Origin: Albimonas donghaensis
GTDB lineage: Bacteria > Pseudomonadota > Alphaproteobacteria > Rhodobacterales > Rhodobacteraceae
DNA: 50,984 bases
Assembly: GCF_900106695.1 (NCBI RefSeq)
Contig: NZ_FNMZ01000014.1
Location: 1-50,984 of the forward strand
Direction of reading: 5' to 3'
How positions within the stretch are numbered: the stretch's first letter is position 1; each line of letters opens with the position of its first letter. A program made the translations under genes and the position numbers. Positions 2,604 through 42,559 of this stretch are shown here, piece after piece. The notes beneath the pieces were generated by a model. The model was not told where the DNA came from. It worked only from the letters and a program-made list of their open reading frames with translations, and searched no databases.

Positions 2604-2927
2604 CTACGCGTCGCCACGGCTTGCCGGTGCGATCTCCGGCTTGTTGTAGGCGGCGAAGAGCCGGTTGAGTCCTTCAGCCAGCATGTCCTCCATCGTCCGG
2701 CCCTGCTCGGCCGCCAGGAGCTTCAGCTGATAGCGCACCTGGGGCGGGTAGTGGCCCGTGATCGCCTTGGTCCCGGCCCTGCTTGGCTGCTTCGCGGTCG
2801 CTTTCGGCTGAGGCTGCGGCTCGGCCTGTGGCGCGACGGCGGTGTTCACGGCTGTTGGGACCGTGGTGGCGCGCGTGCTGCCGCCGGCCTCGCGCATGGC
2901 ATCGGCGATGGATGGGCGTTTAGACAT
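2604..2927 (-). CDS. Ribbon-helix-helix partition protein (ParG/ParB-like)
   Basis: A 107-aa basic protein with a Pro/Ala/Gln-rich flexible N-terminal half and a C-terminal segment, about residues 60-95, that reads like a ribbon-helix-helix fold: GHYPPQVRYQLKLLAAEQ followed by MEDMLAEGLNRLFA. Such small RHH proteins pair with ParA ATPases, bind the centromere and repress the par operon. It overlaps the 3' end of parA by eight bases, so the two are probably translationally coupled. A 13-bp candidate binding site lies 35 bases upstream, inside parA. The role is inferred from fold and position; sequence identity in this class is always low. Confidence 0.72.
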   Translation of the reverse strand: MSKRPSIADAMREAGGSTRATTVPTAVNTAVAPQAEPQPQPKATAKQPSRAGTKAITGHYPPQVRYQLKLLAAEQGRTMEDMLAEGLNRLFAAYNKPEIAPASRGDA

Positions 2928-3576
2928 GGTCAGCGCTCCCCGGCGTCACTTTCGGCAAGTCTAGAAGTATACTTACATACTCGTAAACTTGTCTAATCTC
3001 GCTTGCGGCCTTGCTCCGCGGGTCAATCTCTACAGCGCCGGCCCCTTGCGCATAGGCGTCTTGGAACGTGATGCGGTCGCCGATGGTCGCTGGACAGACA
3101 GGCATCCCCTGCTGTTCGAGCCATTGGGCGGTTTCGGTATGGCGATTGCCGAAAGGCTTGACCCGCGTCAGCACGGCGGCCCGCTGCTTGTCTCCCGCGA
3201 GGTTGATCAGGTCGGTGGTGGCCCGAATGGTTTTCAGGTCGATCACCGAGGGCTGCAACGGCACCAGCACCAGGTCCGCAACCCGAGCGCCCGCGAGCGC
3301 AGCCTGCTCAGTACGTCCGGCGGTGTCGATCAGAAGCAGGTCTACGCCCATGTCGCGTGCGCGGTTGATCACGGCATCGATGCGGGCGGGTTGTGCGTCG
3401 ATGACGACCGGCGCGTCCAGCTGGCGGATGTCGCTCCATTCGCAAGCGCTGACCTGTGGATCGAGATCGATGATGGCGACGGTCAAACCCGCAGCGATGG
3501 CTTCGGTTGCAAGCGAGATTGCCAGCGTGGTTTTGCCGGTCCCGCCCTTCTGGCAGATGAGCGCTATGGTCTTCAT
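2920..3576 (-). CDS. parA: Partition ATPase ParA
   Basis: ParA/MinD-family Walker ATPase, 218 aa from the ATG at 3576 (an in-frame start at 3588 would add four residues). The deviant Walker A motif QKGGTGKTTLA is at residues 9-19, followed by the Walker A' segment VAIIDLDPQ and Walker B-like LLLIDTAG. There is no N-terminal helix-turn-helix extension, so this is the small type Ib form, which needs a separate small DNA-binding partner, here the overlapping RHH gene. One copy of the 13-bp TAGAAGTATACTT site lies about 28 bases upstream of the start and probably acts as operator and centromere. Confidence 0.92.
   Translation of the reverse strand: MKTIALICQKGGTGKTTLAISLATEAIAAGLTVAIIDLDPQVSACEWSDIRQLDAPVVIDAQPARIDAVINRARDMGVDLLLIDTAGRTEQAALAGARVADLVLVPLQPSVIDLKTIRATTDLINLAGDKQRAAVLTRVKPFGNRHTETAQWLEQQGMPVCPATIGDRITFQDAYAQGAGAVEIDPRSKAASEIRQVYEYVSILLDLPKVTPGSADHV
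2962..2974. repeat. 13-bp par site, copy A (inside parA, upstream of RHH gene)
   Basis: TAGAAGTATACTT, identical to copies at 3604 and 4084. Its last ten bases, AAGTATACTT, are a perfect palindrome. It sits just upstream of the RHH gene. Confidence 0.6.
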
Positions 3577-3603
3577 GCAGACTTGCATCCTTGTCGTACA
3601 GAC

Positions 3604-4311: not shown

Positions 4312-4848
4312 TCAGCCCTCCTCTCTGAACTGCCATGCCAGCGCCTGGGACAGGATCATCCGCCCGAGCCGCCCCTCCTGCAGGATCCCCAACGGATCGA
4401 GCAGCTCGCGCGCCCGCGCCCAGGCAGCGGCGTCCATCGCCCGCCCGACCTGGATCGACTCCGACCTCCGCGGAGGCTCCGGGCTGAGATCGCGGACTTC
4501 GCCCGCCAGCAGCGCCGCCTCGTAGTCGCGCAGGGCGTTGGCGAGGATGATCCGCAGCGCCTGCTTCGCGCCATAGACCGCCTCGGCCCGGTCGAAGAGA
4601 GCAGAGCTGCCCGGGGCGGGCAGGGGCACGCTCGCCTTGATCGTCACGGTGGGCCCTCGTGCGCCTTCCTCGTCACGTGGAACCTGTCTCCGTCGGCGCG
4701 GCCTCGGCGGCGGTGCGGGCGCCGCCGCCGAGGCCGCAGCAGGGGGGCTCTCTCGGGCAGGGGCGGGCGATGCGGGCAGCGCCGGCGCGCCATGGCTGCG
4801 CAGCTCGACGAAGGCGGGGATGTCGGGGCCGGGGCGCTTGAGGGGCAT
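4312..4848 (-). CDS. virC2: VirC2-like transfer protein
   Basis: A 178-aa protein with a long Pro/Ala-rich N-terminal linker and a conserved C-terminal domain from about residue 65: VTIKASVPLPAPGS, then AVYGAKQALRIILANALRDYE and a final helix with GRLGRMILSQALAWQF. This matches the VirC2 family of Ti/Ri and Rhodobacterales plasmids. In Agrobacterium, VirC2 has a double ribbon-helix-helix fold and acts with VirC1 at the overdrive enhancer beside the T-DNA border. It follows virC1 by two bases, so the pair is an operon. The repeat array upstream of virC1 is the obvious DNA partner; that link is inference. Confidence 0.82.
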   Translation of the reverse strand: MPLKRPGPDIPAFVELRSHGAPALPASPAPARESPPAAASAAAPAPPPRPRRRRQVPRDEEGARGPTVTIKASVPLPAPGSSALFDRAEAVYGAKQALRIILANALRDYEAALLAGEVRDLSPEPPRRSESIQVGRAMDAAAWARARELLDPLGILQEGRLGRMILSQALAWQFREEG

Positions 4849-4850
4849 GG

Positions 4851-5549
4851 TCAGGCCGCCTCCATCGCGTCCAGCATCTCGGCCGCCAGAGCCTCGGCCT
4901 CGCGCAGCGCAGCCCCGGTATGACCCGCCGCGATCCGCTTGCCCGGCTCCTGCTGCAACGCGGCGTGGTGCAGGTGCAGATGCCCCAGCCCCTTCAGATC
5001 CGCGAAGACCCGGCGCGAGGAGAGCCGCGCCTCGAAGATCGGCAGGGTCTTCAGGATCTCCAACCCATCACGCTCCCCGGCCGAGAGCCGCCCAGGCGTG
5101 ACCCGGTTTATCGCGAGGCCGAGGGGCCGAAGCTCGCCTGCGCTGCGCATCAGCTCGATGACGTAGCGCAGGGTCTGGAGCGCCTCGTCCACCTCGATCG
5201 AGGAGAGGTTCGTCGGCACCACCGTCAGCGCGGCGTTCAGCAGGATGGTCTGGTTGAACTCCGACCCACCGCCGCGGGTGTCGACCAGGGCGATCTCGCA
5301 GCCGTTCGCCTCGGCGGCCTCGAAGGCCGCCTCCAGCGCGTCGAGATCGAGCGCCGGGTAGAGGGCGCAGCGGGCATCCCACTGGCCGCGGGCCTCGGCA
5401 TGGCGGCGCCAGAGCGCGAGGGGCTGGTTGTCGTCGGCCTCGAACAGGGCGATGCGGCGGCCGCGCGCGGCGAGCATCGCGGCCATGGCCATCAGGGTCG
5501 TGGTCTTGCCGCAACCGCCCTTGAACGAGGTGAAGGCGATCAGCTGCAT
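4851..5549 (-). CDS. virC1: VirC1 ParA-like ATPase
   Basis: A 232-aa ParA-superfamily ATPase, close to the size of Agrobacterium VirC1. From the chosen ATG it reads MQLIAFTSFKGGCGKTTTLM with the deviant Walker A at residues 10-17, and later LVDTRGGGSEFNQTILLNAA. VirC1 binds overdrive and recruits relaxosomes to the cell pole and coupling protein. The frame stays open another 122 codons upstream, but that stretch is the phased octamer array and the border-like site, so I treat the extension as non-coding. virC2 follows at once. It is divergent from virD1/virD2. Confidence 0.87.
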   Translation of the reverse strand: MQLIAFTSFKGGCGKTTTLMAMAAMLAARGRRIALFEADDNQPLALWRRHAEARGQWDARCALYPALDLDALEAAFEAAEANGCEIALVDTRGGGSEFNQTILLNAALTVVPTNLSSIEVDEALQTLRYVIELMRSAGELRPLGLAINRVTPGRLSAGERDGLEILKTLPIFEARLSSRRVFADLKGLGHLHLHHAALQQEPGKRIAAGHTGAALREAEALAAEMLDAMEAA

Positions 5550-5582
5550 GGGCGTCTCCGTGGACCTGAGCGGAGGGGCGAG

Positions 5583-5766
5583 CCTGTAAAGCTGCAGACC
5601 TGCATTTCCGCAGACGGGCGGATCCGCAGGTCTGCAAAGCTGCAAACGAGCACGCTTGCAAACAGGCGTTTCCGCATTCGTGCAGATCTGCAAATCAGCG
5701 AAACTGCGTCCCTGCAATCCTGTATTTCTGCTGCTCCGCAGAGCTGCATTTCTGCAAATGGGCACA
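5583..5766. repeat. Phased 8-bp repeat array, 23 units (transfer-enhancer-like)
   Basis: Twenty-three consecutive octamers in unbroken 8-bp register from 5583 to 5766. Top-strand consensus is TCTGCAAA (TTTGCAGA on the virC strand), with three exact copies at 5631, 5687 and 5751. The fourth base, G, is the same in all 23 units and the fifth is C in 21. It lies between the virC1 start and the border-like nick site, 52 bp from the latter. VirC1/VirC2 are known to act at overdrive, and tandem octamers are reported, from memory, for an Ri-plasmid enhancer, so this is a plausible VirC-binding enhancer. Confidence 0.85.
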
Positions 5767-5818
5767 TGCCATCTTGTTGGACCGCATGTGAATATCTCCT
5801 TCGAGGGGGATTCAACCG

Positions 5819-5844
5819 TGGCAGGATATATGCGGATGTAGAAC
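5819..5844 (-). other. oriT: Putative oriT nick region, T-DNA-border-like
   Basis: TGGCAGGATATAT (5819-5831) is identical to the core of the Agrobacterium left border and differs at one base from the right border; the flank GCGGATGTAGAAC (5832-5844) resembles the border's GTAAAC end. On the minus strand it reads ATATATCCTG|CCA, the nick consensus of VirD2 and IncP relaxases, placing the nick between 5822 and 5821. A short inverted repeat (TGAAT 5789-5793, ATTCA 5810-5814) lies beside it. It sits between virC and virD operons, the usual oriT location. By this polarity, the virC side would enter the recipient first and virD2/virD4 last. Confidence 0.8.
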
Positions 5845-5876
5845 ATCCCCTCTGACCTCCCCCGAAAGCGCCGATC

Positions 5877-6317
5877 ATGACTTCCGACGACCGGGTGAAC
5901 CCCCCCACGGGACAACGCCCGCCTGCGCCCTCAGGCCGCGCCGACCGCACCATCTCGATCCGCCTGACCGAGGCAGAACTGGCCGAACTCGACGCCCGCA
6001 TCGCGCCCCTGGGGCTGAAACGGAACCGCGCCCTGCGCATCGCCGCGCGCCGGATCGGGGGCTTCGTGGAGGCCGATCCGGCCGAGCTGGAGGCGCTGAA
6101 GCACGCCGCCGCGCAGCTCTCGGGTGTCGCGCGGAACATCAACCAGATCGCGCGCGTCGCGAACCGGACCGGCGATCCGCATCTCGCCGCCTTCCTCGAG
6201 GAGCGCCGGGATTTGGGCAAGGAGCTCTCGCGCCTCGCCGCGCAGCTGCGCCGGATGATGGACCTCGCGCAGCGACGCGAGGACGGTCTGCGGCGGCTTG
6301 AGGAGGCGTGGCGATGA
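5877..6317 (+). CDS. virD1: VirD1/MobC-like relaxosome accessory protein
   Basis: A 146-aa protein with a disordered start and an RHH-type DNA-binding segment at about residues 20-65 (DRTISIRLTEAELAELDARI then RNRALRIAARRIGG), followed by the MobC-like signature LSGVARNINQIARVANR at about residues 80-96. Proteins of this kind melt or present the nick site to the relaxase; VirD1 does so for VirD2. The start lies 33 bases after the border-like site, and its stop overlaps the relaxase ATG by four bases (ATGA). It could be called MobC equally well. Confidence 0.82.
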   Translation: MTSDDRVNPPTGQRPPAPSGRADRTISIRLTEAELAELDARIAPLGLKRNRALRIAARRIGGFVEADPAELEALKHAAAQLSGVARNINQIARVANRTGDPHLAAFLEERRDLGKELSRLAAQLRRMMDLAQRREDGLRRLEEAWR

Positions 6318-8059
6318 GCATGGTCGCGGAGATGCTGCGCCGGGGCAGGGCGGCGCCGGCCCATGTCTCGCCGGTCGACGCGGTGATGGGTGAGGACTGG
6401 GCCGAGGTGGATTTTTCCCACGGCGCACGCCGTCCGACGCGGGCCGCGCTGATGGCGGCGCATCGCCAGGACATCCGGCCGGGCGGGGCGCCGATGCCGC
6501 CCGCTCTGCCGGGGCGGCGGGAGCAGATTGTCGTGAAGATGGTCCGCACGGGCGGCGCCTCGAACGCCGCCGGGCTGCGCGCGCAGCTCAATTACCTCAG
6601 CCGCGAGGGTGGGGTGGAGGTGCAGCGCTCGGAAGACTTCTTCGGCATCGGCATGGATGCGGAGGAAATCGAGAACGTCATCTCCGCCTGGAACATGCCG
6701 GGGGGGCAGCGGGGCGGGCCGGACCGGACCTCGCATTTCATCGTCAGCTTTCCGCAGAGCATCGATCCCGCCGCCGCCGAGCGCGCGGGCCGCGCCTGGG
6801 CGGAGGAGATGTTCGGCTCCGGCGCCTATGGCGGCGACTGCTTCGACTACGTCACGGCCTTCCACACTGACCGCGCCCACCCGCACATGCATGTGGTCGT
6901 TCACCGGCGCGGGCTCGACCATGACGGTTGGCTCAAGGTCTCGCGTCGCTCGGACGTGAACTACCAGTCGATGCGCGCGCTCGCCGCGGAGATCGCGCAG
7001 AGAGAAGGCATCGAGGTCGAGGCGACCCCGCGCCTTGCCCGCGGGGTCGTGGCCTTGCCCATTCCCGACGCCGAAATCCGCCGCGCCGCCGAGCAGGGCA
7101 GAGCGCCGATCGCGCCCGAGCACACGCTCCTCGGCGCAGCCAGAACGGCCGCTGCGATCGTCCACTACGCCCGTCGCTTCGCCGCCGAAGCGGCGCTGCT
7201 GGAGGACCGCGCCCCGGCGCTGGCCAAGCTGCTGCGCGAGGCCTCCCAGGCCGTCGCGGAAGGCCGCGAGCTGACCGAGGCCCGGATGGGCCGTCCCATC
7301 GATCCCGAGGAGGAAAAGACCATGGCCCAGACGTTGGCGGGCGCCCGGCAGGAGGCGCGAGACAAGATCGCCGCTGTTGACGCGCGGATCGAGGCGATGC
7401 GCGATCCCGTGGAGCAGGTGAAGTTCCAGCGCCAGGCGGCGATGATGAAGGCTGAGGCGGCGCCGGTTCTGGGCGACGCGGGGTTGATGAACTTCGCCAG
7501 GCCCGCCGAGCAGGGGCGGTATGCCGGGTTGCCTGCCGGCGAGGGGCGCGTTGACGCGATCCGAGCCGAAGCCGACCGCCGCGTCTCGGCCATCGCCGAG
7601 CGCGCGGGCCTCAACGGCGCCGCGATGGTGGAGCGATATTCCGGCGGCGCGCCCTCCCGTGCCCTGGCCGAGAGCTATGCGAAGTCGGAGGCGAAGGAGC
7701 GCGAGAACCGCCGCGCGATCACCGGCGCGCCGGAGGAGACGGCGGCGCAGCGCGACGCCGCCCTGACAGCGATGCATCGCGAGATCGGCGCGGTCTATCG
7801 GGCGGCGCGGGAGCTGGCGCGGCAGGAGGCAGGGCGCGACGAGGCGCCCGCGGCGGATCGAGCCACTGCGCCAGAGAAGGCGATGCCTGAACGCGCCACG
7901 CCGTCGCCCACGCGAGACGCCGGGGCAGGGCAGGGGCCCACATCCCGCCCCGCGCCCAGGGACGATGCCGATGACCAGGCCCGCCGCGAGCAGGAGCGCG
8001 CCCGGCGCATCGCCGCCCGCAAGGCGCGCGGCCGCGACGGCGGAGGGCACGGGCTGTGA
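6314..8059 (+). CDS. virD2: VirD2-family relaxase
   Basis: A 581-aa relaxase. The N-terminal half holds the MOBP/VirD2 motifs: catalytic tyrosine in AQLNYLSREG (motif I), HFIVSFP (motif II), and the three-histidine metal site in AFHTDRAHPHMHVVVHRRG (motif III). It would nick the CCTG|C site, stay bound to the 5' end and pilot the strand into the recipient. The C-terminal half is Ala/Arg/Glu-rich, low complexity and probably the secretion tail. The ATG at 6314 overlaps the stop of the preceding gene; a GTG at 6308 is less likely. The stop overlaps the virD4 start by four bases. Confidence 0.93.
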   Translation: MSMVAEMLRRGRAAPAHVSPVDAVMGEDWAEVDFSHGARRPTRAALMAAHRQDIRPGGAPMPPALPGRREQIVVKMVRTGGASNAAGLRAQLNYLSREGGVEVQRSEDFFGIGMDAEEIENVISAWNMPGGQRGGPDRTSHFIVSFPQSIDPAAAERAGRAWAEEMFGSGAYGGDCFDYVTAFHTDRAHPHMHVVVHRRGLDHDGWLKVSRRSDVNYQSMRALAAEIAQREGIEVEATPRLARGVVALPIPDAEIRRAAEQGRAPIAPEHTLLGAARTAAAIVHYARRFAAEAALLEDRAPALAKLLREASQAVAEGRELTEARMGRPIDPEEEKTMAQTLAGARQEARDKIAAVDARIEAMRDPVEQVKFQRQAAMMKAEAAPVLGDAGLMNFARPAEQGRYAGLPAGEGRVDAIRAEADRRVSAIAERAGLNGAAMVERYSGGAPSRALAESYAKSEAKERENRRAITGAPEETAAQRDAALTAMHREIGAVYRAARELARQEAGRDEAPAADRATAPEKAMPERATPSPTRDAGAGQGPTSRPAPRDDADDQARREQERARRIAARKARGRDGGGHGL

Positions 8060-10155
8060 GCCTCGCCCGGAACGACGCCCGCCGCGAGATCCTGACCCTC
8101 GCCGCCATCGGCCTGCTTGCTGGGCTGCTGCTCGGCAACCTCGCCGCCGGGGCCTTCGCCGCCTGGCGCACCGGCGGGACCGTGGGGGAGACGAGCTTCG
8201 CCACCTTCCTCGCCCACGCGCCCTGGGCCGTGGGGCGGGTGACCGAGCCGTTTCGCACCGGCCTCGCCATCCTCGCCGCCACCGGCCTCGCCTGCGCCGC
8301 GCTTCTCCCCGCGATCGCGCGCCGGCCGCAGCTCACCTCCCACGGCGCCGCCCGCTGGGCCAAGCCCGACGAGATCCGCCGCGCGGGCCTCTCCGCCCGG
8401 ATCGATGCGCTGCAGGGTCCGATCTACGCCAAGCTCGGGGCGCCCGGCTCCAGCGCGCCATACCTCACCTCCTCCGAGATCCCGCATTCGCTGATCGCCG
8501 CGCCCACCGGCTCGGGCAAAGGCGTCGGCGTGGTGATCCCGACCCTGCTGACCTGGCGCGGCTCTGTGATCTGCCTCGACGTGAAGGGCGAGAATTTCGC
8601 GAAGACCGCCCGCCGCCGGGCCGCGCTCGGCGACCGCGTGTTCAAGTTCGCGCCCTATGATCCGGAGGGTCGCACCCACCGCTGGAACCCGATGGACGCT
8701 GTGGCCGATGCCGCCCCTGCCCGCCGCTTCACCGAAGCGCGCCGCCTCGCCGCTGCGCTGATCGTGGCGCAGGGCAACGCCACCAGCTTCCTCGAAGGCG
8801 CACGCGAGATTTTTGCGGCAGCCGCCTTGCTGGCTTGCCAGCGCGGCCGCCCGAACATCGGCGAGATCTACGACGCCCTCTCCGCCCCCGGCGAGCTGTT
8901 CGACTTGTTCGAGACGCTGGCCGAGGAAGCTGCAACTGAAGAAGCCGCCCGCATCTTCCGCCGCATGGCCGGGATGGAGAGCCGGATCCTCTCCTCCTAC
9001 CTCTCGGTTCTGGCGGACGGTGGTCTCTCGCTCTGGGCCGACCGCATGGTGCGACGCGCGACCGAGGCGACGGACTTCGACATCGCGCAGATGCGGCGCG
9101 ATCCGGCCTCGGTGTTCATCGTGGTTTCGCCCAACGACCTGATCCCGCTGGCGCCGCTGGTGCGGCTGCTGTTCCAGCAGACCGTCGCCCTGCTGCAGCG
9201 CGCCGAGCCGGGGGCGGACGAGCCATACCCGGTGCTTCTGCTGCTGGACGAATTCGCGTCCCTCGGCCGGATGGAGGCCCTGCAGCAAGGCATCACCACG
9301 CTGCGCAGCTATGGTGGCCGGGTGATGATCGTCGTGCAGTCCATCGCCTCGCTGCGCGACGGGCGGCTCTATGGGCGCGAGGGCGCCTCGGTGTTCTTGG
9401 CGAATTGCCGCCTGCAGCTGTTCATGGCCCCGGCGGACGAGGAGACGCCAGAATATGTGTCCCGCGCCATCGGCGACTTCACCCGCCGCGCGCGGTCGAA
9501 ATCCTGGCGGATCGGCGCCTGGGAGACCTCGATGCAGGAACGTGAGGAGGGCGCCCGCCTGATCCGCCCCGAGGCGCTGCGCCAGCTCGGGGAGCGCAAG
9601 GTGGTGGCGCTGATCCAGAACCACCCGCCGGTGCTGGCCGAGCGGGTGACGTATTTTGAGGACAAGGCGCTGGCGCCGCTGTTCCAGGGGCAGACGGGCG
9701 CCGCGCCTGAACCGCGCTCGCTGGACGGGGCGGCGGCGAACCCGTTGGCGGCGGCGGGGCAGGGGAGGCGGGGGGAGGAGTCGGCAAGACCTGCGCCAGT
9801 CACCGTGGAGCCCGTCCCCCCGGGAATTGCGCAGGCCACTGACGAGCACGACCCCGAACCCGCAGTGGCGGTGGACGAGGCCACCCCGCAGAGCCAGGTG
9901 CGAGAGGCGCCGGCGGCCGAAAAGGACGAGGAGGACGGGACACCCACGACGAAACCCGGCGTGAAAGACTGTGCCCGCATCTCTCACGCTTTCGATGACC
10001 TGCTCGCGCGGGTGGAGGAGGCGGAGGTCAGGTTCGCCGCTCCCCCTGTCGGTGCCGGGTGCTGCGCTGGTCGGTGGCAGTCACCTCCGCTGCCTGAGGT
10101 GAAAGAGCTACCGTCAAGTCGGGCGGGGGGCGGCCGTTCGGCGGGCACCGCATGA
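8056..10155 (+). CDS. virD4: VirD4/TraG coupling protein
   Basis: Type IV coupling protein, 699 aa, an inner-membrane hexameric ATPase that hands the relaxase-DNA complex to the VirB channel. Two N-terminal membrane segments (about residues 14-35 and 70-87) precede the ATPase domain with Walker A IAAPTGSGKGVGVVIPTLL near residue 155 and Walker B VLLLLDEFASLG near 400. The last 140 residues are acidic, low complexity and end in a poorly conserved Cys/Pro/Arg stretch next to the CBASS locus, which may mark an insertion boundary. The start is a GTG overlapping the virD2 stop (GTGA). Confidence 0.93.
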   Translation: MSLARNDARREILTLAAIGLLAGLLLGNLAAGAFAAWRTGGTVGETSFATFLAHAPWAVGRVTEPFRTGLAILAATGLACAALLPAIARRPQLTSHGAARWAKPDEIRRAGLSARIDALQGPIYAKLGAPGSSAPYLTSSEIPHSLIAAPTGSGKGVGVVIPTLLTWRGSVICLDVKGENFAKTARRRAALGDRVFKFAPYDPEGRTHRWNPMDAVADAAPARRFTEARRLAAALIVAQGNATSFLEGAREIFAAAALLACQRGRPNIGEIYDALSAPGELFDLFETLAEEAATEEAARIFRRMAGMESRILSSYLSVLADGGLSLWADRMVRRATEATDFDIAQMRRDPASVFIVVSPNDLIPLAPLVRLLFQQTVALLQRAEPGADEPYPVLLLLDEFASLGRMEALQQGITTLRSYGGRVMIVVQSIASLRDGRLYGREGASVFLANCRLQLFMAPADEETPEYVSRAIGDFTRRARSKSWRIGAWETSMQEREEGARLIRPEALRQLGERKVVALIQNHPPVLAERVTYFEDKALAPLFQGQTGAAPEPRSLDGAAANPLAAAGQGRRGEESARPAPVTVEPVPPGIAQATDEHDPEPAVAVDEATPQSQVREAPAAEKDEEDGTPTTKPGVKDCARISHAFDDLLARVEEAEVRFAAPPVGAGCCAGRWQSPPLPEVKELPSSRAGGGRSAGTA

Positions 10156-10262: not shown

Positions 10263-10772
10263 TCAAGGGCCGTTGCGGATATCAGCAAGCCTTTCGGTTC
10301 TTCCGGATCGGTTGGCGAGCGTTACAGCAAGGAGCGGGTCCTTTTCGAACGAGCCGCCTATGATCGCCAAAATAGGTCGCTGGCAGCGGTAGGATCGGTC
10401 TTCGGCAATTTTCTGAATTGCTTGTAGGTCATCCGAACTTGGGGATGGATGATAAGCAGGGTGAGAGTGCCACTCGCCTAGATAGTGGCTTCCGGCAGAC
10501 CAGGAACGCCTAAGCAGCCAGTCCAGACCCGAGCGCCCTCGGATGAACCAGGTGGGGCCAGCCTCGGAATCAGACGGTGCAGCGGTTGCCTTCTCTACCC
10601 ATGCGGATGAAAAGTCTGAAGAGTAACGCCCGATCAGAACTCCGCCTGTTTCGTTACCCTTCGCCGCGGTTGCCGCCGCAACCATGTCTCGGATCGCATT
10701 CGAAGAGAAGGTCACCACGGCACCGCCTGCGGACTTGAACCGGGCGCCTATCTCAACCTGCTCTGTAGTCAA
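10263..10772 (-). CDS. cap3: CBASS Cap3, JAB/JAMM isopeptidase
   Basis: A 169-aa Mov34/JAB-family metalloprotease. Glu41 in NETGGVLIG and the zinc motif WHSHPAYHPSPSSDD (His102, His104, Asp115) form a complete JAMM active site. In type II CBASS, Cap3 removes or recycles the CD-NTase that Cap2 has conjugated to targets. The start overlaps the 3' end of cap2 by 20 bases, making it the last gene of the operon. It converges with virD4, with about 107 bases between them. Confidence 0.9.
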   Translation of the reverse strand: MTTEQVEIGARFKSAGGAVVTFSSNAIRDMVAAATAAKGNETGGVLIGRYSSDFSSAWVEKATAAPSDSEAGPTWFIRGRSGLDWLLRRSWSAGSHYLGEWHSHPAYHPSPSSDDLQAIQKIAEDRSYRCQRPILAIIGGSFEKDPLLAVTLANRSGRTERLADIRNGP

Positions 10773-12555
10773 CGCAGCCCCCGTCGCCCAAATAGTGAAT
10801 GCCGCAGGCGTCGGAGCGGGAGGCGAGCGCGCTCAAGATCACCCTCGCCCCGATGCCGGACCAGAGCTGAACATCCGCCGGGTTGGCGGGAAACACCGGG
10901 TGCCAACAGCCGATCCCTTCCATGACCGCCGCCCGCTGGACCGGTTGACCGAGGCTTTCGATTAGTGTCGAGAAGCGATGAATGACTTCGGCCGCGGCTA
11001 GCGCGGTCCCGTTCGACACCCAAGTAAGTAGCCCTTCCGCGGCCCAAGTCATCGACAACGAAATGAAAATTTTCTCGCGGTGCCAATCGATTCGCCCTAT
11101 AGCACGCAGAACCGAATTTTCGCCGCTACAATCGAGGATGACGTCATACTCATCATACGGCGGATCGGACTGCACCCGTTCGGGGAAAGCCGATGACGCC
11201 GCCCTCGATCGCATGTCTGGCTGAACACGATTGAGCCGGTCTACAAGGCTCTCCGCCTTGTTGCGACCGATGTCCGTGAGATCGAGCGAGTGACGGCAGA
11301 GGTTGCCGGCCGAAAGGATATCGCGGTCCTGGACATCGATCTGGGTGATCCCGGAACGTGCAAGGGTCTCCGCCACCTGGCTGCCCAATGAACCGGCGCC
11401 AATCATCAGAACCTTGAGGTCGTCGACTGCGGGCTGCTCACGCATCCGAGTCCGCATCTGGTCGGGTGCCCAGTTTTCACACTTGCTCCAGGTCAAGCGC
11501 CGCCCCGAATGTGCCAAGTTGCCGTCGTGTCGCTCGCGATTTGGCTCCGTGTTTCGAAATCCGTCTATCTTCGCATTCTTCTTTGTCAGGGGGATGTCGG
11601 TGATCGCCAACCAGTGCATGCGGGCATCTGCGTCGCCGAACCGCTCCGGGACCGGGAAACCCAGCATCAGCACCGCACGCCCTCTAACTTCAGTGCGCCG
11701 TACCTGGCGACCGAGTGTTCTCAGGATCTCGCCCAGATCGTGCCCATCATTTTGTAGGCAAACGCGCAGTTCGTTATAGGTGCGCGGCAGTTGCCACGCG
11801 CCCATGATGGGAAGTGATGCAAGGCGCAGCCATCGGCATGCGACATCCATCGTGGAGGCTTCAGAGATGCGGTCACCCCATTGGGGAGCATGCAGAGATG
11901 AGCCGTCCTGCCCTGACCACGACCGCACCGCCACGACGCTTTTTTGCTTCGACACTTCGACCAGCGCGGCGCCCCCAGATCGGTCACCCGCCGAAATCCA
12001 CCTCCCCAGATCGGTGTCGCTCTCGGAAAAGCCGATCAGCATGGAGCCGCCCGCTCCCGGCAGCGGAGGCATCTCGAAATGATCTCCGGGAAGATGAAGG
12101 CGGCCATTGCTGGCCGCTTCACACCATTTGCCGAACCGGTCGATTGCCCAAACAAGACGATCAGTCAGATCAGACGGCTCATCGGTTCCGCCGAGCCGCT
12201 CTCCCCAGACTAAGCTAGACTCCGCTATGCAGGGATGACCATCGCGCCACGGCTTGTCTTCTACCGCATCGCCAACAGGGTTCTGATGCGGATATGTGTC
12301 CCGCGGTCCAAGGACGACATCAGGAAACACGGCGACTTTCGCTGGGAAGCTGCTCGTCTCGACGACCAGATGCCAGCCACTTTCAGCCGGAAACCCGTGA
12401 CCGCCCGGCACTTGCACCGTGACCGGCAGCGACAGAGTCCGCCCTCTCCACTCCTGCCATCGGCCGCCTGAGGAAACTGGACCAGCACCTCCGGTAAGGA
12501 GCTCCGTCACGGGAAGCAGTGCGGGCGGAAGCGCATCGGCTTCCAGAGATCTCAC
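10753..12555 (-). CDS. cap2: CBASS Cap2, E2-E1 fusion conjugation enzyme
   Basis: A 600-aa fusion of an N-terminal E2-like domain and a C-terminal ThiF/E1 adenylating domain. The probable E2 cysteine is Cys109 in GHPCIAE, preceded by the YPHQNPVG motif. The E1 part has the nucleotide loop LMIGAGSLGSQVAETLARSG and DVQDRDILSAGNLCRHSL; the probable E1 cysteine is near residue 550 in GIGCWHPVFPANPADV. Cap2 conjugates the C terminus of the CD-NTase to targets and so primes it. The start is GTG, overlapping the CD-NTase stop (GTGA). Confidence 0.9.
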   Translation of the reverse strand: MRSLEADALPPALLPVTELLTGGAGPVSSGGRWQEWRGRTLSLPVTVQVPGGHGFPAESGWHLVVETSSFPAKVAVFPDVVLGPRDTYPHQNPVGDAVEDKPWRDGHPCIAESSLVWGERLGGTDEPSDLTDRLVWAIDRFGKWCEAASNGRLHLPGDHFEMPPLPGAGGSMLIGFSESDTDLGRWISAGDRSGGAALVEVSKQKSVVAVRSWSGQDGSSLHAPQWGDRISEASTMDVACRWLRLASLPIMGAWQLPRTYNELRVCLQNDGHDLGEILRTLGRQVRRTEVRGRAVLMLGFPVPERFGDADARMHWLAITDIPLTKKNAKIDGFRNTEPNRERHDGNLAHSGRRLTWSKCENWAPDQMRTRMREQPAVDDLKVLMIGAGSLGSQVAETLARSGITQIDVQDRDILSAGNLCRHSLDLTDIGRNKAESLVDRLNRVQPDMRSRAASSAFPERVQSDPPYDEYDVILDCSGENSVLRAIGRIDWHREKIFISLSMTWAAEGLLTWVSNGTALAAAEVIHRFSTLIESLGQPVQRAAVMEGIGCWHPVFPANPADVQLWSGIGARVILSALASRSDACGIHYLGDGGCVDYRAG

Positions 12556-13766
12556 GCGAAACGATCCGATCTAGCGACGGAAGTCACAGCGGGCGGCGCG
12601 GCAAATTGTGCCGGAACCCGATCGCCCCCGCGCGGGGGCGGAAGCGGGAACCGGTCGCCCAACATCCGCCGCCACAAGGCGCCGGACACGGCGGCGTCTT
12701 CCGCTTCCAATGCCTCTCGGGCTAGCGCCGCGAAGCCGTTAACGATCTCCACGAAGGCCTCGAAATCCTCAGGGGAAAGCCGAGCAAGCACGTTGTGCTC
12801 CGCTACTCCATGGTCCGCCAGCGCCGGGACATCCCGAGCCCGGGCACGCGAAAGCCACTGGTCTCGGAAAGCCTCGAAGACTTGGACGACCCCTTCCGCG
12901 GTCGTCAGGTCTGAGCCGTCTTCGAGCAAATACCCGACCATGTGTTCGAGCGGATAACCTTTAGGATACTTTGGAAGCTTTTCCGCTTTCTCGAGACGCC
13001 ACCATTTTATGACGCGAACCACGTTCAGATAGGTCCGATTTGTCCGGCGGTTTTTCTCAGCGGTCCACGAGATCTGGAGAAGAGGATGGGTCCGCCCCCA
13101 GGTCTTGGTATCGCGATCCGGGAGCCAGAGCGGGTTATCCTTCCAACCTTGGGGGGGCGCGTCATCGAGCACCTGGGTGACGCTTTCCGTGAGCATCGGG
13201 GCGGGACGCCCGAGTTCGTCGAACACGTTGCGCTGCCGCCATCCGACATTGAGGCGCCAGCTCATGTCGTCTTCGAGCGTGTCCAGCGACCGTGCCGCAT
13301 CAGACCGATAGATCGCCGCGATGTCCGAAGCCGCGGTCAGGCTCGCATCTTCGGTAATACCATGCGGCGTCCCTGAGGGGCGCGGTAGCGCGGTAATGAC
13401 CAAGTCCATATCGACCGCAGACATGGTGATACCGAAGGATCGCCCCTGAGGGCGCCACTTTTCTTTGTAGTACTTGTCGAGAAACGCCACGAAGAGGTTC
13501 ATAGCGTCTTCAGGTCGGACCTTCTCATGGTCGATGTTGGTAACCACAACGATATCGACGTCCGGACGCTTTTCGCCGAGCGGCCGTATGGCTGTCGCCC
13601 GACGGATGCTGCCCTGCAGAAAGGTGGAGACGACAATATTCTTCAGATCAGAGTCGGCCGCCAGGCGGTCTCGAAGCGTTTTCGCAGCGGCCCGCCAGGC
13701 CTCTTGCTGAGGGTCCGTTGGCCGGATCTGACTGAGGAATTCCTTGAACTGCACATCCAGCTTCAT
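12552..13766 (-). CDS. CBASS CD-NTase (cyclic oligonucleotide synthase)
   Basis: A 404-aa cGAS/DncV-like nucleotidyltransferase. The active-site GS motif FLQGSIRRATAI (Gly52-Ser53) is followed by DVD (Asp69, Asp71), and the third acidic residue is Asp121 in VDMDLVITALP. It senses infection and makes a cyclic di- or trinucleotide that switches on the effector. With a Cap4-type effector and Cap2/Cap3 next door, a CdnD-like enzyme making a cyclic trinucleotide is the best guess, but the product cannot be read from sequence. The C terminus ends in Arg-Phe-Ala, a small residue compatible with conjugation by Cap2. Confidence 0.9.
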   Translation of the reverse strand: MKLDVQFKEFLSQIRPTDPQQEAWRAAAKTLRDRLAADSDLKNIVVSTFLQGSIRRATAIRPLGEKRPDVDIVVVTNIDHEKVRPEDAMNLFVAFLDKYYKEKWRPQGRSFGITMSAVDMDLVITALPRPSGTPHGITEDASLTAASDIAAIYRSDAARSLDTLEDDMSWRLNVGWRQRNVFDELGRPAPMLTESVTQVLDDAPPQGWKDNPLWLPDRDTKTWGRTHPLLQISWTAEKNRRTNRTYLNVVRVIKWWRLEKAEKLPKYPKGYPLEHMVGYLLEDGSDLTTAEGVVQVFEAFRDQWLSRARARDVPALADHGVAEHNVLARLSPEDFEAFVEIVNGFAALAREALEAEDAAVSGALWRRMLGDRFPLPPPRGGDRVPAQFAAPPAVTSVARSDRFA

Positions 13767-13904
13767 GCTGAAAATCCATATCCGCGATGAACCATTGGCA
13801 ATCGAAGCAACGAGACAACCAGTGTTCCGGCGCAGAATGTGGTGTGGTCGAGGCGTTCGCCATCAACATAAAGGGGTCGAGCGCCGCAGATCAAGAGCCC
13901 ACGG

Positions 13905-15407
13905 TCAAGTTTCGAAGCTCGGATAGTAGGATCCGTCCGTTTCCCGCGTGAGGTCGAATTCGTAGAGCACGCAGGGTCCCAGCATCTGGGTTTGCTGACC
14001 AAGGTAAAAGGAAAACGCGTTCGGTGCGGACAGGAAGACGTGCACCCTGCCTTTGACGGCAATTGTGTTCGAAACCTCTTCAGCCGCGAGAGATGCTATT
14101 CTCAGAGCGTGTTCGCCACCGCGGATGGCCTTCAGCCCGGCACCTTCTTCAGGGATCACGTGCAGGATCTTCCCTACCGACGGCAGGGCCCGCGCCACAT
14201 ACTGCTCCACTTTCGGAAGCGCATTCCGAGCCAAGCTCAGCACCAGCGCGATGTCATCACCCTCACCTGTCCGGATCTCTGTTAAAATCGGCTCCGGCCC
14301 GGGCCTCTGGTCGTGAGTGTCCCAGACCTGCCGAGAATTTCCATAGCCGATCTGCACGAGTTCGACCGCCGCACCGGACTTGAGGTTGAGGCTTGTCCCG
14401 GCGAGGAAGGCAATCGATGCGGGTGCCTCCAAGAACAATCGGATCTCAGGACCTTGTGCAAGTTCGGATGAGAGAAACGCGCGAACCTGATCGCGAACGT
14501 CGTGCCAGCTCCGGTCGGCGCGAAGAAGGCGACCCTTGAAGTGATCTTGCAGAACGAGCGTGTGTTCTGGTGCGGCCAGCGCGATGTCAGCAGGCAGCGC
14601 GCGCGGCTCGTAGGTGTTGATAGCCACCCCTCTCTTAGCGCCACCTTTGAGCGGGATGAACCAGCCTTCCTCGTCGCACAGCTTTCGGAAGGTGGCCCGG
14701 TCTAGACGATTGATATTCTTGCTCACCAGGGTCCGTGCGGCCTCATCGTAGATGAAGGTGCTTTCGGCGTCGCGCCCCTGAAGTCTGACCAAGCGAAAAT
14801 GCAGGGCCACATCATCGCGAAGCGCATCCAGCGACTTTGCACCCTTCTCGATGTGGAATCCCTCTAGAACGGACCGAAGCTCTTCGTCCGAGTTCAGCTC
14901 GAGATGCTCGCGCCAAAGCTTCCGGACCTCCCCCATCCGGCTGCGGTCGGTGGTTGTATTGAAGAGCTTATCGAGCCTGAGCGATCCGTCCTTGCCGCTC
15001 ACCAATTCCGTGAGTAGGTCCCCCTCCTTAAGGCTGTAGGTCGTGACGAAGTGGAAGGCGGAGTTAGGTTCGCAATCGGTCTTCGCATTGCGCAGGCGCT
15101 GTAGTAACGAGACGGCGGTGGCGCGCAGGAAATCGGGATTGACAAGATCCGCATATCCGAAATGGCCGCTGTCGTCGGTGTGCCATTTGATCTGGAAGTA
15201 CTCGGCGACAATGCGATCCGGGCCGCTCGTGTTGCGCCGCCCCGGATTGTATTTCACTACGATGTCGTCGAACGCTTTCGGGCCATCTGCCTCGAAACTG
15301 ACCTCGACGACGTCAGGCCGATCGTCATCCAGAAGCGCCGCGGCGTGGATCCAGAACCGCCGGGACTGGTAGTTGTCCCCATGCCAGCGCGATGTGATAT
15401 TGGCCAT
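13905..15407 (-). CDS. cap4: CBASS effector Cap4-like (nuclease-SAVED)
   Basis: A 500-aa effector. The N terminus fits a DUF4297/Mrr-type restriction-fold nuclease: WHGDNYQSRRFWIHAAAL, Glu39, FDDIVVKY (Asp47/Asp48) and the Q-x-K motif YFQIKWH (Gln72, Lys74). The C-terminal 220 residues fit the SAVED ligand-sensor domain, with RLFLEAPASIAFLAGTSL, HVFLSAPNAFSFYLGQ and an end of GSYYPSFET type. Ligand binding is expected to activate indiscriminate double-strand DNA cleavage and abort infection. A candidate promoter (15510-15538) and GGAAG before the ATG mark it as first gene of the operon. The locus looks less GC-rich than the virB genes beside it. Confidence 0.88.
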   Translation of the reverse strand: MANITSRWHGDNYQSRRFWIHAAALLDDDRPDVVEVSFEADGPKAFDDIVVKYNPGRRNTSGPDRIVAEYFQIKWHTDDSGHFGYADLVNPDFLRATAVSLLQRLRNAKTDCEPNSAFHFVTTYSLKEGDLLTELVSGKDGSLRLDKLFNTTTDRSRMGEVRKLWREHLELNSDEELRSVLEGFHIEKGAKSLDALRDDVALHFRLVRLQGRDAESTFIYDEAARTLVSKNINRLDRATFRKLCDEEGWFIPLKGGAKRGVAINTYEPRALPADIALAAPEHTLVLQDHFKGRLLRADRSWHDVRDQVRAFLSSELAQGPEIRLFLEAPASIAFLAGTSLNLKSGAAVELVQIGYGNSRQVWDTHDQRPGPEPILTEIRTGEGDDIALVLSLARNALPKVEQYVARALPSVGKILHVIPEEGAGLKAIRGGEHALRIASLAAEEVSNTIAVKGRVHVFLSAPNAFSFYLGQQTQMLGPCVLYEFDLTRETDGSYYPSFET

Positions 15408-25929: not shown

Positions 25930-27075
25930 ATGACCACCCCCACCCGTCGCGGCGATGCCGCCGTGGCGCGCCGAAAGGCCTTCCTTTCCAACCTGCATCG
26001 CCTGCTCGACCAGGCGGCGGCGACGCTCGGCCTGTCTGATGCCGTTGCGACCACCGCGCATGATTTGATCAACCGCATTCCAGAGGACGCCCCAGGGCCG
26101 ATCAGCCCCGCCGGCGTGGAGCGCCTCGCGGCCCTGCGCGGGGTCGATCCGCGCACCATCCGCTACCGTATCCGCAAGCTGATTGACGTGGGGCTGGCCG
26201 AGAACCTCTGCCAGGACGGCGGGCGGCGCCAGGTCGTCCGCGACCGGCAGGGTCGCGTCGCCGAGATCTACGGCATCGGTTTCTGGCCGCTGCTCGACCG
26301 TGCCGCGGAGATCGAGGCCGCCGCCGAAGCCCGCCGCAGATCCGTCGACGAGCACGCCCGGCTGCGGCGCGAGATCAGCGCCATCCGCCGCCGCCTACGG
26401 CCGGTATTTGAGGCGGGACGCGCGGCGGCGGAGGCCTGCGTCGCATGGCGCAGTTTCCCGCGCCGGCTCGCCCATCTTGGCGTCGAGCGTCTGCGGGATC
26501 TCTTCGCCCGCGTGCAATCCCTGCTGGAGGCGGTGGAGGCGCCCGGCGCCGCCTGTGGACAACTCGCCGAGAGCCGGAAAAATCGTTCCGACCGGCCGGA
26601 AAAATCCGAGCGCCCATACAGAACACATCAATTCTCTTCAGAGACCTGTAATCCCGCGGAGGCACGCCAAGCCCGTGCGATCGCTTGCGGTCTCCAGTAC
26701 GTCACCCTGCCGATGGCGCTCGAACTCCTGCCCTGGGACTGGCGCGACGACTTGAACCGCTACGGCGCGCCGAGCTGGGAGGCGGTGACGCAAATCGCCT
26801 GCGAACGGGCGCTGCGCGAAGGGCTGCGGCAGGATGCTTGGAGCTGCGCCGAGGCCGCCTTGGGCCGATCCGGCGCCGCGGTGCTGGCGCTGACCGCCTT
26901 TGCTGGGGCTGAGGCGCGCGGCGGCGTTGTGCGAAACCCCGGCGGATGGGTCCGGCGGATGGTGGAGCTGGCCGAGGAAGGGCGGGCTCAGCTGCACCGC
27001 TCGGTGTTCGGATTGCTGGCGGAGGCCGAAGCGGCGGTGCCCGGCGAAAGCGAACCTACTCGCGCAGGTACTTGA
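25930..27075 (+). CDS. repC: Replication initiator RepC
   Basis: A 381-aa initiator of the RepC family of repABC plasmids. The N-terminal DNA-binding half has a winged-helix region (LAALRGVDPRTIRYRIRKLIDVGLAENL) and the family block GIGFWPLLDRAAEIEAAAEARRR; the C-terminal half contains AWSCAEAALGRSGAAVLALTAF. In this family the origin usually lies inside repC; an AT-richer stretch with two copies of CCGGAAAAATC (26573-26613) is a candidate. RepA and RepB of repABC are absent, so this is a stand-alone RepC. Its 3' end overlaps a convergent small gene by 20 bases. Confidence 0.88.
   Translation: MTTPTRRGDAAVARRKAFLSNLHRLLDQAAATLGLSDAVATTAHDLINRIPEDAPGPISPAGVERLAALRGVDPRTIRYRIRKLIDVGLAENLCQDGGRRQVVRDRQGRVAEIYGIGFWPLLDRAAEIEAAAEARRRSVDEHARLRREISAIRRRLRPVFEAGRAAAEACVAWRSFPRRLAHLGVERLRDLFARVQSLLEAVEAPGAACGQLAESRKNRSDRPEKSERPYRTHQFSSETCNPAEARQARAIACGLQYVTLPMALELLPWDWRDDLNRYGAPSWEAVTQIACERALREGLRQDAWSCAEAALGRSGAAVLALTAFAGAEARGGVVRNPGGWVRRMVELAEEGRAQLHRSVFGLLAEAEAAVPGESEPTRAGT
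26573..26613. repeat. Direct repeat in repC, candidate internal oriV
   Basis: CCGGAAAAATC occurs twice about 27 bp apart in the least GC-rich part of repC, followed by an AT-richer stretch to about 26650. RepC replicons commonly have oriV within repC; this placement is inference. Confidence 0.35.

Positions 27076-37279: not shown

Positions 37280-37283
<4 letters not shown>
36570..37283 (-). CDS. YgjP/SprT-like metallopeptidase of the RM operon
   Basis: A 237-aa DUF45/YgjP-type protein with the zincin motif LTHELAHRIEHHHGAAFW near residue 205 and the upstream block RWGSMTPAGRLTLNLDLIRMP. Such genes are frequent companions of type I restriction loci; substrate unknown. The ATG overlaps the hsdR stop by four bases, so it is the last gene of the operon. 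Confidence 0.87.
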
Positions 37284-40461
<3,178 letters not shown>

Positions 40462-40465
<4 letters not shown>

Positions 40466-40605
40466 CGGGCCTCTCCCGCCTCGGCCGTCGGACCGAGCTT
40501 GAAATTTCGGCCGGCCGGGTGCATATCCTCGTCAAGGATTGGGCATTTCCCGGTCGACGAAGGGGCTCTGGATCTTTCCGGGGCCCTTTTGTTTTGCGCG
40601 CTCAT
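40462..40605 (-). CDS. 47-aa unknown protein between DUF3800 and hsdR
   Basis: A 47-aa frame (MSAQNKRAPERSRAPSSTGK and onward to EAGEAR) linked on both sides by ATGA overlaps: its ATG overlaps the DUF3800 stop and its stop overlaps the hsdR ATG. Such double coupling is good evidence for a translated gene. It is hydrophilic, basic at the start and has no recognised domain. It may also serve mainly to couple translation into hsdR. Confidence 0.6.
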
Positions 40606-41333
40606 GGGAACACCTTCGTCACCCGCAGCTTCGGCGACAGCGTCTCGAAGGCCCGGTTCGGCTGGCCGGGGCGCATCGTGTTCAGGGCGATGGGCCGCGC
40701 CACCAGATCCGCCATCTGCAGGCCGACCGAGTTGCTGGCCTTGGGCGTGAACAGCGGCTCGAAGCTCATGTCCGAGAAGTCGGGCGCATTCCATCCCCAG
40801 CGCGCGCCGTTCGCGCAGATGCGGCGGAACTCCAGCTCCAGCTCGCCGTCCTCCTTCGCGCCGCGGCTCTCAAAGCAGACATGGGTGAGGCGTCCGGCCT
40901 GGCCGTTCCGGCGCAGGAGATGGAGCAGCCGCTCCATGCAGAAGCGCAGCGCGATCTCATAGGGGTTCCAGGGATTGGGATAGCGGTCGACGAGCCGCGG
41001 CTTGTCGATCACCGAGGCGATGATCTCGAACGGCGCCTCGGCGATCAGGTCCGAGATGCCGCCCATGAACCGACCGCGCAGGGCCGGATCGGCGCGCAGG
41101 AAGGTGAAGGGCTGCTGCTGTTTCCGGATCTCGTGCTCATGCAGGATCACCTCGTCATGCCCGAAGAACTCGAACTTGAACCGCTGGAAGGCGGGGGTGA
41201 CCTGGGTGATGTAATCCTCCTTGCGCAGGACGCAGAAGGCGAGCGCGAAGACCGGGAACTGCGGGTCGATCCCCGTCAGCCCGTGATCGCCGCTCTCATC
41301 CACGAACACGATATGGTCGGAAAACGCGGTCAA
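40602..41333 (-). CDS. DUF3800 protein
   Basis: A 243-aa DUF3800 family protein, which is thought to have an RNase H-like fold. The start block IVFVDESGDHGLTGIDPQFPVFALAFCV, the middle LHEHEIRK, and the end block NSVGLQMADLVARPI are typical. Family members often lie in defence or mobile loci; function is unproven. TTG at 41333 gives the usual N terminus and overlaps the hsdS stop (TTTGA) with GGAG eight bases before it; an ATG at 41360 is the alternative. Confidence 0.8.
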   Translation of the reverse strand: MTAFSDHIVFVDESGDHGLTGIDPQFPVFALAFCVLRKEDYITQVTPAFQRFKFEFFGHDEVILHEHEIRKQQQPFTFLRADPALRGRFMGGISDLIAEAPFEIIASVIDKPRLVDRYPNPWNPYEIALRFCMERLLHLLRRNGQAGRLTHVCFESRGAKEDGELELEFRRICANGARWGWNAPDFSDMSFEPLFTPKASNSVGLQMADLVARPIALNTMRPGQPNRAFETLSPKLRVTKVFP

Positions 41334-42559
41334 ACGGCAGGCTCCGCAGGCGCCCGCCATGCGCCGGTCACGGTCAGGAGCTTCTGCATCAGACCGCGCT
41401 TCTGGCGTTTCAGGGCGTCGAGGTGGGCTTTCGAGGTGGCGAGGTCCTGCGCCGCCAGGTCGATGGCCGCCGCGATGGCCTGCTGCTCGGCGAGCGGCGG
41501 GACCGGGAAGGGCAGCTTCCTGAACTCCTTCCAGCGCAGCGAGCCGCGACGGTCCACGGAGGCGCTGGTGGCCACCGAGAACATGTGCCGGAAGACGCTC
41601 GTCTTCAGGACCCGGAACGCATAGTCGGCGTCGACCTTCTTCGCATCGAAGCGAAACACGCAGTAGATCGGGCTCACCACGCCGATGTCGGCGATGGTCT
41701 GAAGGCCGATGGAGCCTTCCTCGACATGGTTGCTCGGGAAGCCGAAATCGCCGCGGGCGATGATCTTGTAGCCGCTGAGATCGGCGCTGAAGATCTGCTT
41801 CTTGAAATACTCCAGCGAGCGGACGAAGCCGTCATGCTTGGAGCAGGACAGCACCTCGGACACCGCGCCGTCGGCATTGGTGCGCGAGACCTCCTTGGCC
41901 AGGTCGCCGATCTTCGCCACACGCCAGGCGGCAGGGACGTTGAACCACCGCGCCTCCTGCCGCGCCGAGGCGTCGCCGAAATTCGCCAGCCGGGCGCCGC
42001 CGAAGACGAGCCGGAAGGTGATCGCGTCCAGCCGCCGCCGCTTGGCGTCGATCAGGCGGGAGGCGGCGTCGATCGCCTCGTCCCAGGTCCGCAGGATCCC
42101 GGCGATCCGGCGCTGTTCGGGGAGAGGGGGAACCGAAACCACCTGTTCAGTGATGTCGGACTTGTGGACATGAACCAAGCTCGACTTGAAGCCATGGGAT
42201 TTGGCTTCAACCCGCCGTGTCACCAGCTGCAGAGCCGCATGAAGCCAGTGCAAGTCCACAGCTGCCTTCGGCGTGACGCGGTAGATGTGCTGGTTGAGAA
42301 CGCCTCTCGGCCCCGGCCAGATCGTGGGTCCGAAGGAGACGCCTTTGACGCCGGCCCATGCGAACAGGAGCTCCCCTGGCTCCACGATCCAGTTCTTGCG
42401 CGGCTCGCCGTCGAAATAGTTGAATTCCTGCGACCCGTTGAGGTTCTGGATGCGAATGATCGGTAGACCGTCTTTCGCCCAATCTTTCGGGCGGAAGCCG
42501 TTGCCGTTGGTGAAAGTGCAAATTTCGCCGAGGCTGCAGCGCTGCCCATGGTCAAGCAT
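41330..42559 (-). CDS. hsdS: Type I restriction specificity subunit S
   Basis: A 409-aa subunit with two target-recognition domains, each followed by a conserved coiled spacer: PPLPEQRRIAGILRTWDEAID near residue 145 and PPLAEQQAIAAAIDLAAQDLATSK near residue 355. This is the normal two-half architecture, reading a bipartite DNA site. The ATG at 42559 overlaps the hsdM stop by eight bases. Confidence 0.92.
   Translation of the reverse strand: MLDHGQRCSLGEICTFTNGNGFRPKDWAKDGLPIIRIQNLNGSQEFNYFDGEPRKNWIVEPGELLFAWAGVKGVSFGPTIWPGPRGVLNQHIYRVTPKAAVDLHWLHAALQLVTRRVEAKSHGFKSSLVHVHKSDITEQVVSVPPLPEQRRIAGILRTWDEAIDAASRLIDAKRRRLDAITFRLVFGGARLANFGDASARQEARWFNVPAAWRVAKIGDLAKEVSRTNADGAVSEVLSCSKHDGFVRSLEYFKKQIFSADLSGYKIIARGDFGFPSNHVEEGSIGLQTIADIGVVSPIYCVFRFDAKKVDADYAFRVLKTSVFRHMFSVATSASVDRRGSLRWKEFRKLPFPVPPLAEQQAIAAAIDLAAQDLATSKAHLDALKRQKRGLMQKLLTVTGAWRAPAEPAV

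Follow-up and report, generated by a model that had tools for sequence, protein, structure and literature searches.

A phased octamer array beside the transfer origin of an Albimonas donghaensis element, with VirC2 as its candidate reader

The window analysed here, a stretch of 50,984 bp from Albimonas donghaensis (contig NZ_FNMZ01000014.1, positions 1 to 50,984, forward strand), carries conjugation genes with virC1 and virC2 and a putative origin of transfer (oriT) whose core resembles the borders of transferred DNA (T-DNA). Between virC1 and this core lies a slip-free array of 8-bp units, and an array occupies the corresponding place at all 14 loci, window included, in which both virC1 and the core were found. 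Among the relatives the spacing persists and the letters differ, a pattern suggestive of consecutive docking sites for VirC2, a ribbon-helix-helix (RHH) protein. We slightly favour the reading that VirC2 binds contiguous sites all along the array and so serves relaxosome delivery in transfer. The initial annotation, made from the letters alone, had proposed a conjugation enhancer wrapped by small RHH proteins, an interpretation that is, as a whole, partly supported.

Phased arrays in the window and in related plasmids

The initial annotation had described 23 octamers at 5583-5766 in unbroken register, and a recount in eights from 5583 reproduced this layout, with G in column 4 of 23/23 units and C in column 5 of 21/23. 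Over this 184-bp segment the identity at lag 8 was 0.55, and at lags 16, 24, 32 and 40 it was 0.51-0.53. Dinucleotide shuffles of the segment had a mean identity of 0.25 (standard deviation 0.034) and none of 5000 attained 0.55, whether at lag 8 or elsewhere in the range of lags 2 to 40, so the 8-bp autocorrelation suggested as a check lies far above shuffled sequence. No other 184-bp stretch of the window scored as high at lag 8 (runner-up 0.41, near 24560). A length-penalised column-model fit gave 25 octamers at 5570-5769, with a score of 105.7 against a maximum of 20.6 in 50 shuffles. Tandem Repeats Finder at score 30 did not report the array, and octamer phase beside a border-like core may be a useful sequence mark for oriTs that such a standard repeat finder misses. 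A coding origin was rejected because 8 is not a multiple of the codon length. Replication iterons are repeats of about 17-22 bp beside rep, and the array has a pitch of 8 and lies 3 kb away from the rep gene; 2.8 copies of a 22-bp repeat at 1279-1340, just before the RepA-type gene, are likely iterons.

Searches of plasmids, metagenome-assembled genomes and genomes yielded the 14 loci (the window, L001, L007, L008, L030-L038 and L046), which represent about 12 lineages, as L035 and L046 barely differ and L036 closely resembles both. The genome samples overlapped (394, 385, 385, 17, 1, 3 and 390 genomes) and added only L007, L008 and L038/L066; the plasmid records covered were the best 60 of 195 with a VirC1 relative and all 26 with a VirD1 relative. 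L096, identical to L037 over all 3687 bases, was left out of the counts. At 21 weaker VirC1-family loci (L009-L029) no oriT core was found within the stretches examined, and two scans of viral contigs gave no relatives, the two pattern hits looking like chance matches in unrelated contigs.

Every array scored above all of its own 20 shuffles (weakest L038, 37.0 against 22.0), ran without slips over 14 to 50 units and lay to the left of the nick, on its leading side (14/14 loci). The phase expected in relatives was thus present throughout, with a pitch of 8 in 11 of the 14; it was 9 in L007 and in L033 from Haematobacter, and 17 (8+9) in L032 from Acuticoccus. The helical geometry first proposed, in which an 8-bp pitch places sites at 0, 270, 180 and 90 degrees, is therefore not universal, as these homologous arrays run at 9 bp or alternate between 8 and 9. 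The unit letters vary widely, from CCGGCAA in Phaeobacter to ATCGGCGT in Jiella and TCGA.CGTC in L007.

Close pairs bear on the claim that position as well as sequence is under selection. The Phaeobacter loci L035 and L046 are identical across 622 aligned bases except for one 8-bp unit. Between L046 and L036 the only indel in the array is one further 8 bp, a 1-bp gap beside virC1 lying outside it; substitutions per unit column over 41 units were 24, 18, 12, 1, 2, 16, 0 and 9, and the flanks had 19 in 277 positions. In this one plasmid pair, as judged from the alignment, a three-base core of the unit is retained while the other columns change. Slippage alone yields 8-bp indels, so the held core columns and the lack of other indels are the stronger evidence for selection; together with the register kept in relatives, they indicate that phase is constrained as well as sequence.

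Octamer phase at Ti, Ri and rhizobial borders

Borders of Ti and Ri plasmids were named left or right by us, from record order and known maps. Octamer phase at lag 8 (p < 0.02) was found at four of six right borders and at none of the six left borders. The octopine TL right border was matched by 8/500 shuffles, and those of octopine TR, pRi1724 and pRi1855 TL by 0/500 each; the phase was absent at the right borders of C58 (104/500, first 100 bp) and pRi1855 TR (380/500). Over 300 bp the C58 right border gave 4 units (0/50), but its score and the shuffle maximum were the same to one decimal. To the right of the right border stand 12 octamers (TGCCTTCG) in pRi1724 and 6 (TGTTCAAT) in pRi1855 TL, and the Ri enhancer of 8-bp repeats named in the initial annotation is thereby real in sequence; we take these arrays to be the published Ri transfer stimulator (TSS). 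Border by border, the octamer phase appears firm in the two Ri cases, fair in octopine TR and weak in the others.

Upstream of virC1 in the octopine Ti, R. etli 8C-3, pAt3, pRL7, A. vitis and Bradyrhizobium plasmids, neither a core nor an array was found (4 to 49 of 50 shuffles as good). The border-like cores that were found in these plasmids sit elsewhere on the record, the A. vitis plasmid having none by exact match. That the Ti/Ri phase stands at the border and not beside virC1 favours a transfer role common to both groups.

Overdrive of Ti plasmids and the TSS of Ri plasmids are likewise cis sequences that adjoin a border-like nick site, and their plasmids also encode VirC1 and VirC2; the 8-bp phased units that we propose as the class feature are common to the window array and the four right borders above, the likeness being closest in the two Ri arrays and weaker in octopine Ti. 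The window array differs in length (25 units, and up to 50 in relatives), in abutting virC1 on the leading side, and in belonging to a conjugation origin with no T-DNA; overdrive and the TSS lie outside the right border, to its right, and the window array lies to the left. The letters differ from overdrive as well (unit-matrix similarity to the octopine TR right-border units 0.20). We found no settled answer to how VirC1 and VirC2 recognise overdrive, or to why overdrive sequences are so unlike one another. If pitch and contiguity, not letters, are what is common, these arrays could be grouped with overdrive and the Ri stimulator in a single class that has VirC2 as its candidate reader, and a long-standing question about T-DNA transfer would become testable in non-pathogenic marine plasmids. 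A transfer enhancer of VirC plasmids is already known as a kind, as are the 8-bp Ri repeats, which the sequences here also show. Long arrays at these conjugative oriTs, their differing units and pitches, and a connection with VirC2 appear new, as they were not found in the open-licence papers searched, and no description of an array of this type in marine plasmids was recognised in that literature.

Among 18 rhizobial border-like sites three had octamer phase, one each in Mesorhizobium, Bradyrhizobium and p42a, the Bradyrhizobium site being matched by 6/50 shuffles in the penalised fit. The pRL7, p42a, Mesorhizobium R31 and Bradyrhizobium 66S1MB plasmids (L071, L072, L075-L078, L080-L088) carry 3-5 same-strand cores per plasmid, of which at most one each has octamer phase to its right and, in pRL7, none. 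These plasmids look as if they held bacterial T-DNA-like regions with one right border. In pAt3 (L079) and R. etli 8C-3 (L074), telomere-like (CCCTAA)n hexamer arrays lie directly right of a border-like core, in the place where other VirC plasmids have octamer phase.

VirC2 as candidate reader and the competing explanations

The genes beside the array were confirmed as virC1 and an RHH-fold virC2 by Pfam, structure model and fold search. The window VirC2 has a predicted disordered N-terminal tail followed by a single-chain tandem RHH domain (residues 67-177). It scored 23 bits against PF07181, below the cut-off of 25, and matched PDB 2rh3 at E 1.6e-5 and the family profile at 3e-40; structure model and fold search agree with a single-chain double RHH fold, so that by sequence and modelled fold the protein at 4312-4848 qualifies as a VirC2. 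RHH chains of the F-plasmid relaxosome, presumably TraY, reached a Z far under that of 2rh3 in the fold search, and the F oriT is not known to carry a long phased array.

We infer VirC2 as the reader, engagement of VirC1 at the array and dependence of transfer on the array. Each VirC2 chain, a fused RHH pair, would cover one 8-bp unit through two beta strands, and adjacent chains would touch and coat the array DNA. The coated array would offer many N-terminal tails to the ParA-like ATPase VirC1, which would collect VirD1 and VirD2 at the nearby nick site and take the relaxosome to the secretion channel, where VirD4 is located; the array would act like a type Ib plasmid centromere employed for transfer, and like overdrive. 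Unit letters would be free to drift if VirC2 drifts along, and contiguity would have to persist. Such a requirement for contiguity would account for a register kept despite varying letters and a pitch of 8 or 9, which a fixed helical face does not. VirC1 is ParA-like and is reported to bind overdrive, to promote, together with VirC2, the assembly of the relaxosome and to place it at VirD4 (PMC4285021, PMC4949242).

Covariation of unit letters with protein sequence was assessed by one-sided Mantel tests of unit similarity against protein distance, with few loci and many tests. Loci of other pitch (L007, L032, L033) and L046, a near-copy of L035, were excluded, and L038 entered only the tests of the whole VirC2 domain, VirC1 and VirD1, its VirC2 being missing from the alignment used for the domain parts. 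Over 10 loci the correlation was -0.48 (p 0.0016) for the VirC2 domain and -0.26 (p 0.06) for VirC1, and over the 9 loci without the near-duplicate L036 it was -0.29 (p 0.07) and -0.04 (p 0.39). By domain part, tested over 11 loci, 10 loci and 8 marine loci in turn, it was -0.45 (p 0.0006), -0.40 (p 0.009) and -0.46 (p 0.024) for the VirC2 beta strands, -0.45 (p 0.0006), -0.33 (p 0.05) and -0.28 (p 0.098) for the rest of the domain, and -0.39 (p 0.007), -0.24 (p 0.10) and 0.04 (p 0.58) for the N-terminus. The beta strands seem to hold up best, and this modest covariation is a pointer to VirC2, not proof.

VirD1/MobC, another RHH-like relaxosome protein, might instead bind the array and open the nick region, which we regard as very unlikely. 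The window VirD1 adjoins oriT, matches MobC over the cut-off and has a NikA-like match of 25.4 bits, under the cut-off of 27, and its distance follows unit similarity over 10 loci (-0.36, p 0.014), falling to -0.10 (p 0.29) without the near-duplicate. It is the most conserved of the three proteins (mean distance 0.42), however, and the core is nearly unchanged; between R. denitrificans and R. litoralis, VirD1 is 18% different and the VirC2 domains 76%, at a unit similarity of only 0.56, still the highest for L034.

The closest parallels to binding of VirC2 along the array are type Ib partition sites, parS of pSM19035 (omega protein, 7-bp repeats) and parH of TP228 (ParG), which combine rows of short repeats with a tailed RHH protein and a ParA-like ATPase. 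The pSM19035 RHH protein sits on 7-10 contiguous 7-bp repeats, of which at least 4 must be contiguous for full ParA activation (PMC9499535), and in parH tetramer boxes in a row are coated by ParG (PMC7308502, PMC5016525). The window array shares the run of at least 4 contiguous repeats (25 octamers) and the adjacent ParA-like and RHH genes; it differs in its single-chain RHH pair, in a pitch of 8 or 9 and not 7, and in lying beside oriT. The order of array, ParA-like gene and RHH gene also recalls type Ib par modules, and the array could be a true partition centromere with which VirC1 and VirC2 segregate the plasmid. We find this quite unlikely, as a separate ParA-RHH gene pair exists on the element (2604-3588) and the VirC proteins of Ti plasmids act in transfer (PMC4285021, PMC4949242). 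Our broader proposal, a tentative one held at well below even confidence, is that VirC1, VirC2 and the phased array form a transfer centromere, a type Ib ParABS-like module redirected from segregation to conjugation, with the Ti overdrive and Ri stimulator as short members, and that letters and VirC2 beta strands change together fast as a plasmid-specific address for the secretion channel. Such a shared DNA architecture would connect the machineries of plasmid segregation and conjugation. The met boxes of MetJ are likewise tandem 8-bp sites read by an RHH protein, but they are few, palindromic and part of chromosomal metabolic operators.

Several results weigh against VirC2 binding in the service of transfer. 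Binding of overdrive was reported for VirC1, and not for VirC2, by Toro et al. (cited in PMC4285021), and overdrive and the array lie on opposite sides of the nick, the array on its leading side. The VirC2 whole-domain correlation owes much to a single near-duplicate pair; in the 10-locus tests VirD1 is correlated as well and VirC1 nearly so, and over 11 loci the rest of the VirC2 domain and its N-terminus correlate too. In the penalised fit octopine TL gave a different place and period (4/50), not repeating the lag-8 result, and octopine TR was weaker (1/50). The core-to-array distance ranges over 52-436 bp. Four cores that stand alone (R. denitrificans pTB2, R. litoralis pRLO149_63, a 3.2-kb Paracoccus plasmid and a Palleronia plasmid) had no comparable array on either side, with no vir gene annotated in the stretches covered and no VirD1 relative on the plasmid records themselves; the Paracoccus core had a marginal 4-unit signal (22.7 against a shuffle maximum of 19.5, 0/50), and pRLO149_63 scored 17.0, matched by 3/50 shuffles. 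In that Paracoccus plasmid, which has no annotated relaxase gene, two border-like cores stand in inverted orientation (L044, 800-900).

The distance from the array to the virC1 start is 6-42 bp at 10 of the 14 loci, among them the window with 20 bp, and 88-154 bp at the remaining four. This gap beside a variable core distance indicates that the array is positioned by the virC1 start and not by the nick, and so an operator role is also possible: VirC2 or another repressor would control virC1-virC2 expression, and any enhancement of transfer would be indirect. The missing arrays at stand-alone cores agree with this, as do the parS sites of the pSM19035 RHH system, which overlap promoters (PMC9499535). 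No sigma-70-like promoter was seen within 5400-6000, though such a scan is weak for an organism of this kind. Known RHH operators have few sites, and 14 to 50 units seem beyond what an operator needs; moreover, comparable Ti/Ri arrays stand at the right border and none upstream of virC1. Overall, we regard a chiefly operator role as unlikely.

Folding of the array as single-stranded DNA was also considered. The window array folds better than its shuffles (z -3.5), and could work in the transferred strand through hairpins or as an entry-strand signal. The folding is not conserved, z on the virC1 strand ranging from -3.6 to +2.2 over the 14 arrays and lying above -2.5 in 12 of them; we rejected it as a shared function and consider this explanation extremely improbable.

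Gene neighbourhood in the window

Features around the array are listed in Table 1. As first annotated, the array lies between virC1 and the nick site, about 50 bp from the core; homology with T-DNA borders puts the expected nick near 5821/5822. With the nick so placed and the transferred strand running toward the array, the array is on the leading side, and the caution that overdrive lies on the opposite side was correct.

Table 1 Features of the transfer region in the window
Feature	Position	Strand	Basis
virC2, 178 aa	4312-4848	-	PF07181, 2rh3, family profile, fold search
virC1, ParA/MinD-like ATPase, 232 aa	4851-5549 (start codon 5547-5549)	-	Pfam PF07015 VirC1, 246 bits
Gap of 20 bp from array to virC1 start, with GGAG ribosome-site-like stretch	5550-5569	-	Sequence
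Octamer array, 25 units, slip-free	5570-5769	.	+ strand consensus about TCTGCAAA, core GC
T-border-like oriT core TGGCAGGATATAT	5819-5831	+	Sequence and pattern match; same core at array loci
Inverted repeat GGATGT-AGA-ACATCC adjoining the core	5834-5848 (core and repeat 5819-5848)	+	Sequence
virD1/MobC-like relaxase accessory gene	5877-6317	+	PF07328, 43.9 bits; PF05713
VirD2/MobA-type relaxase gene	6314-8059	+	PF03432
virD4 coupling protein gene	8056-10155	+	PF02534, 325.7 bits

Genes of virB11, 10, 8, 6, 5, 4 and 3 type follow farther along the window. Between virD4 and these genes, at 10753-15407, lies a defence set resembling a cyclic oligonucleotide-based antiphage signalling system (Prok-E2_A/ThiF, SMODS nucleotidyltransferase and SAVED protein). 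The second ParA and RHH gene pair (PF20605) has the same gene order as virC1-virC2, and no phased array was found in the 500 bp upstream of its ParA gene (8/50 shuffles as good). A RepC-like gene at 25930-27075, besides the RepA-type gene at 1475-2512, possibly gives one element two replication systems. Type I restriction-modification genes, followed by overlapping AAA ATPase and subtilase genes, are located at 37280-44153 and 45737-49145.
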